DNA of 64,000 nucleotides from Pseudooceanicola onchidii (GTDB lineage: Bacteria > Pseudomonadota > Alphaproteobacteria > Rhodobacterales > Rhodobacteraceae). The stretch is from contig NZ_SPUW01000001.1 in the NCBI RefSeq assembly GCF_004959925.1, forward strand, positions 1,426,001 to 1,490,000, written 5' to 3'. Made by a program: the position numbers and the translations under genes. Below, in pieces: positions 41,798 through 47,278 of the stretch; positions within the stretch are counted from its first letter, which is position 1, and each line of letters begins with the position of its first letter. The notes beneath the pieces were generated by a model. That model saw only the letters and a program-made list of their open reading frames with translations. It was not told the origin of the DNA and did no database searches.

Positions 41798-41872
41798 TGG
41801 CTCCGGCGGTAGGGATCGAACCTACGACCAATTGATTAACAGTCAACTGCTCTACCGCTGAGCTACGCCGGA
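41798..41872 (-). tRNA. tRNA-Asn (GTT)
   Basis: The minus strand folds as a 75-base tRNA: acceptor TCCGGCG with CGCCGGA, anticodon loop CTGTTAA giving GTT, T-arm GTAGG-TTCGATC-CCTAC, and an encoded CCA. The rest of the 314-base gap around it holds nothing else that I can support. Confidence 0.97.
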
Positions 41873-42932: not shown

Positions 42933-44216
42933 ATGGACTTCAGCTGGCTCAAACGATATGTGCCGCGCGGCCTGTACGGACGGGCGGCGCTGATCCTCGT
43001 GCTGCCGGTCGTCGTGGTGCAGCTGGTCGCGTCGGTCGTCTTCATCCAGCGCCATTTCGAAGGCGTGACGACCCAGATGACCCGCACCCTGACGGATGAG
43101 CTTGTGCTGGTGGCACAGGCCGGGCCCGAGGATCGCGACCGGTTGGCGGATGCGCTGAATTTCACCGTGGTCGAGGGGCGCGAGCCGCCCGTGCGCGATG
43201 TCCGGCGGTGGTACGATCTGTCGGGCGTCTCGGTGATCCGGACCTTGCGCAACCGCGTGCCGGATCTGCGGGCGGTCGAACTGCCGGATGACTATGTCGT
43301 GCGCGTGCATCTTGTCGGTGAGCCGCCCCTGACCATGAGCTTTGCCCGCAGCCGCGTGTCGGCCTCGAACCCGCACCAACTGTTCGTGAACATGGCGTTT
43401 TTCGGCGGGCTGATGACCCTGGTGTCCTACCTTTACCTGCGCAACCAACTGCGCCCGATCACCCGGCTGGCGGCGGCGGCCGAGGCCTTCGGCAAGGGCC
43501 AGACCGTGCCCTATCGCCCCGGCGGCGCGACCGAGGTGCGGGCGGCCGGACAGGCCTTTCTGGCCATGCGCAGCCGGATCGAGAGACAGATCGAACAGCG
43601 CACCCTGATGCTGTCGGGGGTCAGCCATGACCTGCGGACTCCGCTGACACGATTGAAGCTGGGCCTGTCGATGCTTGAGGACGACGAGAAGGAGCCGCTT
43701 GAGCGTGACGTGACCGAGATGCAGCGCATGATCGACGAATTCCTGGCCTTTGCGCGGGGGGCGTCGTCGGAACAGGTGGCCGAGGTCGACCCGATCGAGC
43801 TTGTCACCGCCATCGTCGAAGACGCGGCGCGGGGCGGGGCGAAGGTCACGCTGGACGAGGTCGACGGAGAGGGCACGGTCAACATCCGTCCGGGGGCGAT
43901 GCGCCGCGCGGTCGAGAACCTGATTTCCAACGCCGTGCGCTATGGATCGCGGGCCGAGGTGTCGGTGCAGATGACCGACAAATCCCTGCGCATCAGGGTC
44001 AGCGACGATGGCCCCGGCATCCCGGCAGACCGGCGAGAGGAGGCGATGCGCCCCTTCGCCCGGCTGGAACCGGCGCGCAACCAGAACCGCGGATCGGGCG
44101 TCGGGCTGGGGCTGGCCATCGCGACGGACATCGCGCGAACGCATGGTGGCGTGCTGCGGCTGGGGGAATCGCGCAAGCTGGGCGGGTTACAGGCGGATAT
44201 CGTGCTGGCGCGCTAA
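42933..44216 (+). CDS. EnvZ-like sensor histidine kinase
   Basis: A 427-residue two-transmembrane kinase: helix one at residues 18-37, a periplasmic region of about 110 residues, helix two near FFGGLMTLVSYLYL, a HAMP domain, the phosphoacceptor motif SGVSHDLRTPLTRLKLGLSM, and ATPase motifs NLISNAVRYG, SDDGPGIP and GSGVGLGLAI. It looks like EnvZ. No response-regulator gene is adjacent; a cognate OmpR must lie elsewhere. A GTG 24 bases upstream is an alternative start. Its end overlaps the convergent ligase gene by four bases. Confidence 0.9.
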   Translation: MDFSWLKRYVPRGLYGRAALILVLPVVVVQLVASVVFIQRHFEGVTTQMTRTLTDELVLVAQAGPEDRDRLADALNFTVVEGREPPVRDVRRWYDLSGVSVIRTLRNRVPDLRAVELPDDYVVRVHLVGEPPLTMSFARSRVSASNPHQLFVNMAFFGGLMTLVSYLYLRNQLRPITRLAAAAEAFGKGQTVPYRPGGATEVRAAGQAFLAMRSRIERQIEQRTLMLSGVSHDLRTPLTRLKLGLSMLEDDEKEPLERDVTEMQRMIDEFLAFARGASSEQVAEVDPIELVTAIVEDAARGGAKVTLDEVDGEGTVNIRPGAMRRAVENLISNAVRYGSRAEVSVQMTDKSLRIRVSDDGPGIPADRREEAMRPFARLEPARNQNRGSGVGLGLAIATDIARTHGGVLRLGESRKLGGLQADIVLAR

Positions 44217-45784
44217 TCCGTCGCCTCGGGCAGCATGGCGCGCAGGGTCTCAATGCGGTCGGCCTCTTCCACCGGCTTGTCGCGGCGGATCCGGGCAATG
44301 CGCGGGAACCGCATCGCCAGCCCGGACTTGTGCCGATTGGAGCGATTGAGCCCTTCGAACGCGATCTCAAGCACCAGCCCGGGCGCCACGGCACGCACGG
44401 GGCCGAAACGGTCGGTGGTGTTCTGCCGCACGAACCGGTCCAGCTCCTTCAGCTCTTCGTCGCTAAAGCCGAAATAGGCCTTGCCGACGGGGACAAGCTG
44501 ATCTCCGTCCCAGACGCCGAAACTGAAATCCGAGAAATAGCCGGATCGTTTGCCGTGGCCACGCTGTGCATTCATCAAAACGGCGTCGATGCGCATGGGG
44601 TCGCGCTTCCACTTGTACCAATGGCCCCGGATCCGACCGGCCAGATAGGGGCTGTCCTTGCGTTTGATCATCACGCCTTCGATCACCGCTTCCGGCGGAT
44701 CGGCACGCAGGCGGGCAAGATCCTCCCACGTCTCAAACGGCAGAACCGGCGACAGGTCGATGCGGTCCGGCGGCAGATTGGCGACCAACCGTTGCAACCG
44801 GATATGCCGATCCGGGAAAGTTTGATCCCGCAGATCGCGCGAATTTTCGATCAGAATGTCGTATATTCGCAAGGCGGCCGGATGTGTCTTCAACAGTGTC
44901 TTCGGCGCGGTCTTGCGGTTCAGACGCTTTTGCAGATCCCCAAAGGGCGCGACTTGATCGCCGCGCCGAACCAGCAGCTCTCCGTCCAGGGTGGCGTCAA
45001 AGTCCATCGCGTCGATCACATCGGGGAAGGCGGCCGAGATATCTTCGCCGGTCCTGGAATACAGGCGCTTCACCCCCTGGTCAGACACCGCCTGAACACG
45101 GATGCCGTCCCATTTCCATTCTGCCACGAAATCCTCGGGTGGCAGGTCGCGCAGCCCCTCAAGGTCGATGGCGGTCGACAGCATGACCGGGCGAAACGGC
45201 GCGCGGGCGGCGTTGACGGGTTTCTCACCGCCCTCGGCCCATTCGAACAGCGCGGTGTAGGGGGGTGTCAGCCCGTGCCACAGTTCCTCGATCTCGGTCA
45301 GGGGCAGGTCGCCGTACTGCGCAAAGGCCGTCCGGGCCAGCCGGGCCGACACGCCGACCCGCATCCCGCCGGTCGCAAGCTTGAGATAGGCATAACGATC
45401 GTTGGCCACCATCTGATCCAGCCGCCCCGCGATCACACCGGGCAGGGCATTGCGCCCCGTGGTCTGCAACTCGGCCACCAGATCGGGCAGATCGGGCGAC
45501 ACAGGATCGACCGGATCGGGCCAGATCAGCGCGATGGTTTCGGCCAGATCGCCCACGAAATCATAGGACTGCGCAAAGAGAACCTCGTCGATCTTGTCCA
45601 CCGCCAGCCCCCGCAGCAGCGAAGGCGTGACCTTCTTGAGATCCAGATCCCCGGTCAGCGCGGCCAGCGCCAGCCCGCGTTCCGGGTCGGGCCGCGCACG
45701 AAAATAGCCGGTCAGCAGCCGCAGCTTGTCGTTCCGTCCGGGCGTCACGGCAAGGCTTTGCAGAAGATCGGCAAAGGCCTTCAT
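44213..45784 (-). CDS. ATP-dependent DNA ligase (damage-response type)
   Basis: A 523-residue single-chain ligase. The N-terminal domain (about residues 1-200) precedes the nucleotidyl-transferase core with the AMP-accepting Lys in EWKWDGIRVQ, DGELLVRR, VIEGVMIKRKDSPY and WYKWKRDP, ending in an OB fold. It corresponds to the bacterial ligase B-type enzymes encoded beside an MBL exonuclease and linked to cisplatin-type damage. It overlaps the exonuclease stop by four bases, so the pair is coupled. The LigD-style primase and Ku are absent. Confidence 0.93.
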   Translation of the reverse strand: MKAFADLLQSLAVTPGRNDKLRLLTGYFRARPDPERGLALAALTGDLDLKKVTPSLLRGLAVDKIDEVLFAQSYDFVGDLAETIALIWPDPVDPVSPDLPDLVAELQTTGRNALPGVIAGRLDQMVANDRYAYLKLATGGMRVGVSARLARTAFAQYGDLPLTEIEELWHGLTPPYTALFEWAEGGEKPVNAARAPFRPVMLSTAIDLEGLRDLPPEDFVAEWKWDGIRVQAVSDQGVKRLYSRTGEDISAAFPDVIDAMDFDATLDGELLVRRGDQVAPFGDLQKRLNRKTAPKTLLKTHPAALRIYDILIENSRDLRDQTFPDRHIRLQRLVANLPPDRIDLSPVLPFETWEDLARLRADPPEAVIEGVMIKRKDSPYLAGRIRGHWYKWKRDPMRIDAVLMNAQRGHGKRSGYFSDFSFGVWDGDQLVPVGKAYFGFSDEELKELDRFVRQNTTDRFGPVRAVAPGLVLEIAFEGLNRSNRHKSGLAMRFPRIARIRRDKPVEEADRIETLRAMLPEATD

Positions 45785-46791
45785 TCCTCGACCTCGTCCT
45801 CGTAGCCCACCAGCCGAAGCGGCCGACCGACCCGCTGTGTCAGCTCGCACCACCGCATCAGCGCATCTTCGCGCCCATGGGTGATCCAGGTTTCCTGCGG
45901 CGCGAGCTCTTGGATCGTGCGGGTCAGGTCGGGCCAGTCGACATGGTCCGAGATGATCAGCGGAAGCTCGACCCCGCGCGCCTTGGCCCGGTTGCGGATC
46001 TGCATCCAGCCCGAGGCGAAGCCCAGGATCGGATCGGGAAACCGCCGCACCCAGGGCCCGTTCAGCGCGCCGGGCGGAGCGATCACGATCTCTCCGGCAT
46101 AGTCGGCCTTCTTGCTGCGCTCGGCCGTGGCGGGACGAAGCTCTCCCAGGTCGATCCCCTGGTCGACGTGGTAGTCGCACAGCGCCTGCAACGCGCCGTG
46201 AATATAGATGGGCCGGTCCCACCCGGCGGCGCGGATCAAGGCGATCACCCGCTGCGCCTTGCCAAGGGCATAGGCGCCGATCAGATGCGCCCGGTCGGGG
46301 AAGGTCGCGAGCGAGGCCATCAACTTGGCCATCTCCTCTTCCGGCGCGGGGTGGCGGAAGACAGGCAGGGCAAAGGTCGCTTCGGTCACGAAGACATCGG
46401 CCGGAATCGGTTCCCACGGGGCGCAGGCGGGGTTCGGGTGGCGGCAATAGTCACCCGACACGGTGATCCGCATCCCTTTGTACTCCAAGCCGATCTGCGC
46501 CGATCCCAGGACATGCCCGGCCGGCCGGAAGACAACGCCGACGCCGTTGACCTCAACCCGGTCACCCCCCGCGGGCTGGCGATCCCGCGTGAACCCCGCG
46601 CCATAGCGCAGGGCCATGATGTCCAGCGTCTGCGGGGTTGCCATGACAGCGCCATGCCCCGAGCGCGCGTGATCGGCGTGTCCATGCGTCACCAGCGCCC
46701 GGGGCACGGGCGCGACCGGGTCGATGTAGAAATCGCCGGGCGGGCAATAAAGCCCCTGCGGTGTGGGATGCAGCATGTCGTCGTAACGCAT
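45781..46791 (-). CDS. ligase-associated MBL-fold DNA exonuclease
   Basis: A 336-residue metallo-beta-lactamase/beta-CASP-like nuclease with VTHGHADHARSGH (zinc ligands), RPAGHVLGSAQIGLEY, VSGDYCRHPNPACAP and later ligands in ISDHVDWPDL and ITHGRED. It is the known partner of the damage-response ligase encoded four bases in overlap downstream. In many genomes a DEXH helicase (Lhr-type) and the PdeM phosphoesterase complete the cluster; neither is next to it here. Confidence 0.92.
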   Translation of the reverse strand: MRYDDMLHPTPQGLYCPPGDFYIDPVAPVPRALVTHGHADHARSGHGAVMATPQTLDIMALRYGAGFTRDRQPAGGDRVEVNGVGVVFRPAGHVLGSAQIGLEYKGMRITVSGDYCRHPNPACAPWEPIPADVFVTEATFALPVFRHPAPEEEMAKLMASLATFPDRAHLIGAYALGKAQRVIALIRAAGWDRPIYIHGALQALCDYHVDQGIDLGELRPATAERSKKADYAGEIVIAPPGALNGPWVRRFPDPILGFASGWMQIRNRAKARGVELPLIISDHVDWPDLTRTIQELAPQETWITHGREDALMRWCELTQRVGRPLRLVGYEDEVEE

Positions 46792-46812
46792 GCATCTGAC
46801 ATAGGCGGAAGG

Positions 46813-46845
46813 GGAAGGTTTGGTAGGCCCGGCAGGACTTGAACC
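46813..46845 (-). repeat. 33-bp direct repeat, displaced tRNA 3' end (att-like)
   Basis: An exact copy of the 33 bases at 47194-47226, covering the T-loop to CCA end of the tRNA gene plus eight bases beyond. There is no tRNA 5' half here, so it is a fragment left by site-specific integration or duplication at the tRNA 3' end. Confidence 0.85.
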
Positions 46846-46942
46846 ACAATGTTCGAATTCCACAAATTGTATGACGGTATCGCACATATTGTGTGGTAGA
46901 CTTGTTGATATACCATGAAACCTGAAAGGAGGTGAATACAAA

Positions 46943-47122
46943 ATGACAAAGAGACCTGGATCCAATACCGGCAGAAATGGTGGCATCTTCCAAGAAGTCG
47001 GCCCGCGAGGGGGGAAGAAGCCCAATTTCTCAACCGTTCCGGACAATACCCGTCTTCCACCAACGACCAAGCCTGGGAACGAGTGGAAACCGGTTAGGCG
47101 GACGCCTGACAGCAAACGTTGA
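46943..47122 (+). CDS. 59-residue YjzC-like small protein
   Basis: A small basic, Gly/Pro/Lys-rich protein starting MTKRPGSNTGRNGGIF, then QEVGPRGGKKPNF, VPDNTRLPPTTKPG and ending in RRTPDSKR. This order resembles the short YjzC-type proteins found scattered in many bacteria, some mislabelled as multidrug transporters; it has no membrane segment. AAAGGAGG lies eight bases before the ATG, stronger than at most genes here, and a terminator follows. It is the only gene of the micro-island. Function unknown. Confidence 0.75.
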   Translation: MTKRPGSNTGRNGGIFQEVGPRGGKKPNFSTVPDNTRLPPTTKPGNEWKPVRRTPDSKR

Positions 47123-47143
47123 GAAACTGCCATAGACGAGAAC

Positions 47144-47177
47144 AGCTTGTCCAAGATCTGCTCTTGGGCAAGCTTTT
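47144..47177 (+). terminator. terminator of the micro-island gene
   Basis: AGCTTGTCCAAGA pairs with TCTTGGGCAAGCT (one G-U pair) around TCTGC, followed by TTTT. It ends the small gene before the tRNA. Confidence 0.7.
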
Positions 47178-47193
47178 CATGTAATCGTAAGAC

Positions 47194-47226
47194 GGAAGGT
47201 TTGGTAGGCCCGGCAGGACTTGAACC
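47194..47226 (-). repeat. 33-bp direct repeat at the intact tRNA 3' end (att-like)
   Basis: The T-loop/acceptor 3' half of the tRNA gene and eight downstream bases, identical to 46813-46845. Confidence 0.85.
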
Positions 47227-47278
47227 CGCAACCAAAGCGTTATGAGCGCTCTGCTCTAACCAATTGAGCTACAGGCCC
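47202..47278 (-). tRNA. tRNA with CAT anticodon, probably tRNA-Ile2
   Basis: A 77-base cloverleaf with acceptor GGGCCTG, anticodon loop CTCATAA (anticodon CAT), T-arm GCGGG-TTCAAGT-CCTGC and an encoded CCA. CAT can be elongator Met or the lysidine-modified Ile2; the C4-G69 and C5-G68 acceptor pairs and the CTCATAA loop favour Ile2, as recognised by TilS. It is the integration site of the micro-island. Confidence 0.92.

Follow-up and report, generated by a model that had tools for sequence, protein, structure and literature searches.

A 348-bp segment inserted beside a tRNA-Met gene of Pseudooceanicola onchidii carries a single 59-codon gene, and on balance we read it as an acquired remnant without an integrase, similar to a cis-mobilizable element (CIME); the parent element, possibly a temperate phage, would have integrated at the T-loop of this tRNA. 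An exact tRNA-derived repeat, empty sites in congeners, a foreign base composition, the family membership and constraint of the gene and a prophage-bearing island at the same tRNA in a relative were all observed. The window referred to below is the whole stretch of DNA that was analyzed, 64,000 nucleotides in length. Its relevant features are as follows.

45781 to 46800, minus strand: native left flank, gene for a metallo-beta-lactamase-like protein beside an ATP-dependent DNA ligase gene (Pfam matches below cut-off; the coordinates are those of the stretch translated for searches, the exact start codon being approximate)
46813 to 46845, minus strand: displaced 3' end of tRNA-Met (25 nt) with 8 nt of native flank, the outer junction of the insert (exact repeat; continuous with the flank of the empty-site congeners)
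46846 to 47193, no strand: inserted segment between the repeats, 348 bp, GC 0.483 (missing from the empty sites in G002, G008, G014 and G019)
46927 to 46935, plus strand: ribosome-binding site AGGAGGTGA (sequence; local similarity to the relatives L032 and L033 extends 21-22 nt upstream of the start codon)
46943 to 47122, plus strand: 59-codon gene of the P22 orf59a / PHROG 3202 family, distantly YjzC-like (ORF, profile and sequence matches; dN/dS 0.11 versus L034)
47144 to 47174, plus strand: intrinsic terminator-like hairpin, then a T-rich tail (13 pairs; folding)
47194 to 47226, minus strand: second copy of the 33-bp repeat, 25 nt of which are the 3' end of the intact tRNA-Met (exact repeat)
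47202 to 47278, minus strand: intact tRNA-Met (anticodon cat) with encoded CCA (Rfam, 67.3 bits)

The two copies of the repeat are identical at 33 of 33 positions and start 381 bp apart; approximately 3e-10 exact repeats of 33 bp are expected in 64 kb of the window's composition. Each copy consists of the last 25 nt of tRNA-Met, from GGTTC of the T-loop to the encoded CCA, followed by 8 nt of downstream flank. An earlier note on this DNA had described an exact 33-bp repeat of a tRNA 3' half flanking the segment. The flanking repeat and its origin from the 3' end were confirmed, but the repeated part amounts to about a third of the tRNA and not to half. The arrangement is that of a tRNA-integrated genomic island, with the intact tRNA at one junction and its 3' end directly repeated at the far one. 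We take the repeat to be unlike the attC sites of integron gene cassettes. All 38 tRNA genes of the 3.67-Mb genome were scanned over approximately 9 kb downstream with exact 13-nt seeds, and a displaced 3' copy was found at only one of them, the tRNA-Met described here; the scan otherwise picked up a tandem pair of tRNA-Asp genes and a single 13-nt match at a tRNA-Leu. A family of micro-islands within this genome was rejected, the present one being the sole instance among the tRNAs scanned. A transposon, insertion sequence or MITE was also rejected, since terminal inverted repeats are lacking at the insert ends; no inverted repeats of at least 11 bp were found across the 600-bp flanks of the gene.

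To look for empty sites, the locus was compared in 21 congeners, one genome per species. Four of them (G002, G008, G014 and G019) have an empty site, where the flank gene lies 20-30 bp from the 3' end of tRNA-Met and the sequence continues through the core without the insert. Because these four syntenic congeners show a joined, empty site, the segment is an insertion. They are all those among the 21 with the same flank gene beside tRNA-Met; in the remaining 17 the flank gene was not found in the DNA examined, which mostly reached about 10 kb to either side of the tRNA but in G017 extended only approximately 450 bp on the side that matters, and in G003 was shorter than usual. The 59-aa gene had no convincing counterpart in any of the 21, the weak matches being in G001 (42%, three internal stops) and G005 (38%, E 0.008). 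The prospect, raised in the earlier note, of a segment present in all relatives with no empty site was therefore not borne out. The same data bear on an old duplication, or ancestral content of the locus kept by vertical descent, which could draw on the perfect repeat and nothing else. It was rejected as contradicted by the clean empty sites, with the gene convincing in none of the 21 congeners and the insert lacking a second copy in the genome, and we regard it as extremely improbable. Base composition sets the insert apart as well: its GC content is 0.483 compared with 0.649 for the window, and none of 1274 stretches of the insert's size was equally AT-rich. The markedly AT-richer segment and the island geometry described earlier are supported, as is a foreign origin.

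The native flank varies among the congeners. We presume that the product of the stretch from 45781 to 46800 is the ligase-associated exonuclease. The ligase-associated module (window positions 44213-46800) adjoins tRNA-Met in only four of the 21 congeners, so it is variable in place or presence. By eye and from ORF starts, an EnvZ-like gene adjoins the tRNA in 7 of 15 congeners compared. Four congeners (G010, G012, G011 and G004; loci L156, L157, L160 and L164) have, also by eye, a tyrosine-integrase-like ORF starting approximately 2.6-2.7 kb from tRNA-Met, beyond the EnvZ-like and the next gene; in the window a tRNA-Asn (41798-41872) is found there. The genome search returned no recombinase in the tRNA-Asn region of P. 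onchidii.

Within the insert, the ribosome-binding site AGGAGGTGA stops 7 nt upstream of the ATG of the 59-codon gene. The hairpin downstream of the gene has 13 pairs, compared with 0.7 expected from shuffles, and the 71 nt behind the gene gave a folding z of -4.7. Both the ribosome site and the terminator reported in the earlier note were accordingly recovered. A promoter common to the relatives is not claimed, since similarity in the 100 bases upstream was at about shuffle level (best z 3.7, for the distant relative L069). The terminator-like hairpin now lies between tRNA-Met and the gene that closely follows it in relatives, and transcription of that gene may be altered. The gene and the insert are each present in single copy in the P. 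onchidii genome. Neither an integrase nor a visible remnant of one was found in the 348-bp insert, which in this respect departs from a tRNA island with its own integrase. Searching the genome yielded three tyrosine recombinases, two Xer-like by domain make-up and one further integrase-like gene, none of them near the insert, in line with the earlier remark that no integrase is present. The insert thus keeps att-like ends and is devoid of genes for integration or transfer, which it may once have had.

The window protein matched PHROG 3202 with an E value of 4.4e-25 (residues 1-58 to positions 3-61 of the 61 in the profile). It is 74.6% identical over its full length to orf59a of phage P22, which likewise has 59 aa and is a small gene with an annotated terminator directly behind it. 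Unlike the window gene, P22 orf59a lies inside a phage genome, between mnt and sieA; it is annotated as hypothetical or unknown. No match to Pfam or NCBIfam was obtained for the window protein at E 10, the PF14168 YjzC model included. Among 41 aligned relatives, however, 20 have a PF14168 match at E 1, the best of them at 8.5e-11, and two Bacillota relatives (L066 and L067) are 46-47% identical to the window protein. The earlier designation of the gene as YjzC-like therefore holds for the relatives but not for the window protein itself. The portions of the literature searched gave no function for YjzC. Relatives at 39 genome loci belong mainly to alpha-, beta- and gammaproteobacteria, with a few Bacillota and other groups; 60 phage records, P22 among them, and 82 plasmid records also matched at E 1, with 52 and 14 of them, respectively, at 60-80% identity.

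The nearest relatives, 85% (G416/L032) and 80% (G420/L033) identical, come from the same bacterial family, and a further one at 81% (L034) from a Rhodobacter MAG. This bears on an assembly artefact, in which a contaminant fragment would have been joined at the repeat. The analysis is based on the assembly, which leaves some room for such an error. However, the relatives are those just named, the locus lies inside a 1.64-Mb contig and the genome is 99.83% complete with 0% contamination, and an artefact is very improbable. From codon comparisons, the gene is judged to be under purifying selection, with a dN/dS of 0.11 versus L034; versus seven of eight relatives, synonymous sites were saturated and pN was 0.10-0.20. 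From an AF2 model (pLDDT 84.8, pTM 0.64), the product is predicted to be small and to have an all-beta fold. No fold in the PDB matched at E 0.001, and no PDB sequence at E 1.

To see how the tRNA-Met site is occupied elsewhere, matches to the core region were collected from 394 genomes of the family, 166 of which contained it. Nearly all matches listed stop at the core (mostly without individual inspection), and among them only that of G270 extended beyond it, by 8 bases. Eight genomes besides P. onchidii had two core matches among those listed, and six of these were examined (not G087 and G404). G027, G167 and G314 have two full tRNAs; G270, G365 and G451 have a displaced fragment, that of G365 being 48 nt long and on a contig different from that of its tRNA. 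The 25-mer of the tRNA 3' end occurred in 32 of 90 genomes, P. onchidii included, with a displaced copy in P. onchidii only; the two copies of the 25-mer in G027 belong to two full tRNAs.

In G270 (L293-L295), tRNA-Met and the displaced fragment enclose 53 kb. Pfam matches identified TerL (terminase), portal and capsid genes, and PHROGs identified integrase, Erf-like and tail-fiber genes. Bacterial-type genes such as an alkyl sulfatase (Pfam) are present as well, so the segment is not a plain phage genome, and from its gene content we interpret it as an island containing a prophage. The end of the integrase ORF lies 82 bp inward of the displaced copy; the match of this ORF to PHROG 1 was modest (8e-11), and no Pfam integrase matched at 0.001. 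On its T-loop side the repeat of G270 stops four bases short of that in the window; on the other it extends beyond CCA by about 10 bases with a single mismatch. At the same offset of 21 inside the core, both the window and G270 have the motif CAATGTT, which is absent from G451; as one 7-mer with one presence and one absence in the two T-loop-type fragments examined, it is only suggestive. Beyond this motif the arms (80-90 bp) of the window and G270 showed no likeness, 571 of 1000 shuffles scoring as high. An orf59a-like gene was not found in the G270 island (tblastn, nothing better than E 0.7). Larger islands at this tRNA, which the earlier note had proposed looking for, are thus represented by the 53-kb island of G270, but no larger version of the window's own islet was found in the genomes searched.

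In G451 (L300 and L301), tRNA-Met and another displaced fragment of T-loop type lie close to two contig ends. Its tRNA-Met locus is probably a further island, with a P-loop-ATPase-like ORF (by eye) beside the tRNA. Among viral sequences in IMG/VR, the tRNA 25-mer was found in 25 contigs; in 15 it belongs to a full tRNA-Met, and the other 10, several of them near-duplicates, have the fragment only. Seven of the 10 fragment-only contigs are exactly identical for 9-16 nt past the window's boundary towards the anticodon, and three (L194, L198 and L204) begin at GGTTC like the window. No orf59a-like gene was found in the examined DNA of the 25 contigs, and two exact patterns from the insert arms matched no IMG/VR contig. 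Taken from these comparisons, the tRNA-Met site can be regarded as an attachment site used by integrating elements.

One class of tyrosine integrases typically has T-loop boundaries, and the ends of the repeat point to an integrase. An integrase-free origin would be the capture of a foreign fragment during double-strand break repair, with fill-in of staggered ends duplicating 33 bp that happen to overlap the tRNA. Consistent with this, 8 of the repeated bases belong to the flank and not to the tRNA, the native flank runs on from the displaced copy without a break, and neither an integrase nor a certain att arm is identifiable in the insert. However, the repeat starts at GGTTC of the T-loop, and that of G270, whose boundary lies within four bases, also runs past CCA. 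Partial flank identity is furthermore not rare, as G265 and G026 have 30 bp exact among the matches listed, and a chance hit on a tRNA is rare a priori (38 tRNAs in 3.67 Mb). Break repair is therefore an unlikely origin of the segment.

The remnant reading, which we favor, would start with site-specific integration of an element, possibly a temperate phage, at the T-loop of tRNA-Met. After crossover by a tyrosine integrase, one end of the element would have borne an intact tRNA and the other the displaced native 3' end. Nearly the whole of a formerly larger element, integrase included, would then have been lost, perhaps by one deletion reaching from just inside the displaced copy, the place of the integrase gene in G270, to just upstream of a tRNA-side cargo gene. 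What remains would be one self-contained "moron" unit of ribosome site, P22-orf59a-family gene and terminator. The lack of a recombinase, the single copy and the absence of the same form elsewhere argue for a remnant. The identity of the repeats at 33 of 33 positions suggests recency and counts against this reading, which needs two events, the integration and the deletion, to be of recent date. Also against it, no larger version was found in the genomes searched, two exact arm patterns had no match in IMG/VR, no integrase remnant is visible in the insert, and the gene was not found in the examined DNA of the 25 viral contigs and is missing from the G270 island, whose arms are unlike those of the insert beyond CAATGTT.

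Alternatively, the segment might never have been larger, a minimal non-autonomous cassette that entered as a small circle of att site and one gene, with an integrase supplied in trans by another element. Apart from a transcription unit and the att-like end on either side of it, the insert indeed contains almost nothing, an integrase-bearing island occupies the same tRNA site in G270, and the P. onchidii genome has one integrase-like gene besides the two Xer-like ones. However, no tRNA-linked flanking repeat was found within 1.5 kb of the gene at any of the 39 other genome loci, 11 of which end within that distance on one side (contig or locus end). L033, L065 and L067 have a 15-bp flanking repeat, none longer and none in a tRNA. 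The same cassette at other tRNA genes, which the earlier note had proposed searching for, was thus not found among these loci, and an established helper-moved cassette would not be expected to lack a tRNA-flanked form at all 39 of them. The single copy of the gene and insert in the genome and the two exact arm patterns without an IMG/VR match speak against a cassette as well, and we consider it possible but doubtful. Of the two options offered earlier, a helper-moved cassette and the relic of a larger island, we prefer the relic because a 53-kb island occupies the same tRNA in G270 and the tRNA-flanked form of the gene was found at no other locus.

Among known classes of element, the CIME fits the islet best by analogy. 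CIMEs are described in passages of PMC5704250 as decayed ICEs or IMEs that have kept attL and attR and often stand in tandem with other elements. The islet is alike in its attL- and attR-like ends and in the lack of integration or transfer genes; it differs in having a single gene, a 381-bp period and no neighboring element, and in suggesting a phage rather than a conjugative origin. With the G270 island it shares the tRNA-Met, a displaced 3' fragment, a T-loop boundary four bases off, identity past CCA and CAATGTT at the same inner offset. Unlike the islet, the G270 island measures 53 kb, has integrase, terminase, portal, capsid and some bacterial-type genes and lacks an orf59a-like gene.

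To approach the role of the gene, the neighborhoods of its relatives were compared. At five loci (L033, L034, L041, L057 and L071) the orf59a-like gene lies between an aminotransferase-like gene and gpt, a common chromosomal place; none was found near gpt of P. onchidii. In L217, L220, L222 and L227, where the orf59a-like gene is absent, the aminotransferase-like and gpt neighbors are 20-45 bp apart (between aligned parts). Six loci (L038, L039, L045, L046, L055 and L060) have the gene behind an AAA-ATPase/subtilase pair on the same strand. The distance from this IetA/IetS-type pair to the gene was 220-242 bp at the five loci measured, L039 being approximately a duplicate of L038, and the IetA/IetS identity was tested by PADLOC profile in L046 only. 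Possibly the orf59a-like gene is a third gene of the IetAS defense system. At L048, L049, L053 and plasmid L080 the orf59a-like gene has a DUF3892 gene as its neighbor, and HTH and M78-peptidase (ImmA/IrrE) genes lie on the opposite strand; L056 has only the HTH and DUF3892 genes near it, and L036 the DUF3892 gene beside it. These neighbors were assigned by similarity clusters, those of L080 by annotation, and capH/capP were tested in L048. According to passages of PMC13373217, CapP is a protease activated by single-stranded DNA that cleaves the repressor CapH, and the pair controls adjacent immune operons. Near the orf59a-like gene of L035 (an alphaproteobacterium), L054 and L058 (a Phenylobacterium and Parasphingorhabdus marina), the start of an nrdB-like gene was seen by eye.

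PADLOC profiles were applied to the ORFs around the gene at 31 of the 39 loci, omitting L039 as a near-duplicate and L064-L070 as distant. The near set took the three closest ORFs upstream and the two closest downstream, up to 2.5 kb from the gene; the control ORFs, from 27 of the 31 loci, lay beyond 3.2 kb. At 1e-15 the 120 near ORFs matched 67 families, compared with 10 families for 104 distant ORFs; as families overlap and the matching ORF is unspecified, this contrast is an indication and not a statistic. The ORFs were picked by a home-made rule, some being spurious, and the counts are of profile families or ORFs, not of loci. Among the best 25 of the 67 near families were IetS (five ORFs), capP (five) and capH (four), and, with a single ORF each, ThsB, a CBASS cyclase, restriction enzymes and DndB. 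When ten of the 120 near ORFs were retested singly at 1e-15, only that of L059, a type I restriction enzyme, matched; of ten neighbor proteins picked as promising, eight matched PADLOC at 0.01. The window protein itself matched no PADLOC profile at 0.01, and its association with defense comes from the neighborhood.

In P22 the neighbor is the superinfection-exclusion gene sieA. Passages of PMC10883804 name orf59a just as part of a plasmid that also carries sieA and mnt and confers strong P22 resistance, and they report SieA as necessary and sufficient for the SieA exclusion system. By that account P22 orf59a is not needed for SieA exclusion. Since relatives stand beside superinfection-exclusion and anti-phage genes, the gene is likely, judged by its neighborhoods, to be an accessory of phage exclusion or defense. 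A further, tentative reading, to which we give rather little weight, is that the orf59a/YjzC-like protein would be an unrecognized anti-phage accessory, its gene conserved behind IetAS and adjoining CapH/CapP-type control pairs, and that this gene would travel singly and could be planted at a tRNA gene by a phage integrase acting in trans.

If the anti-phage accessory reading is true, the window would hold a defense gene in mobile form, carried as a "moron islet" of one gene and no integrase. With one gene and 381 bp, the islet stands at the extreme among att-flanked elements that lack a recombinase, and it allows a clean test of whether an integrase using the same tRNA can still excise it. 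As the orf59a family stands beside anti-phage genes at a number of loci, its role can be tested.
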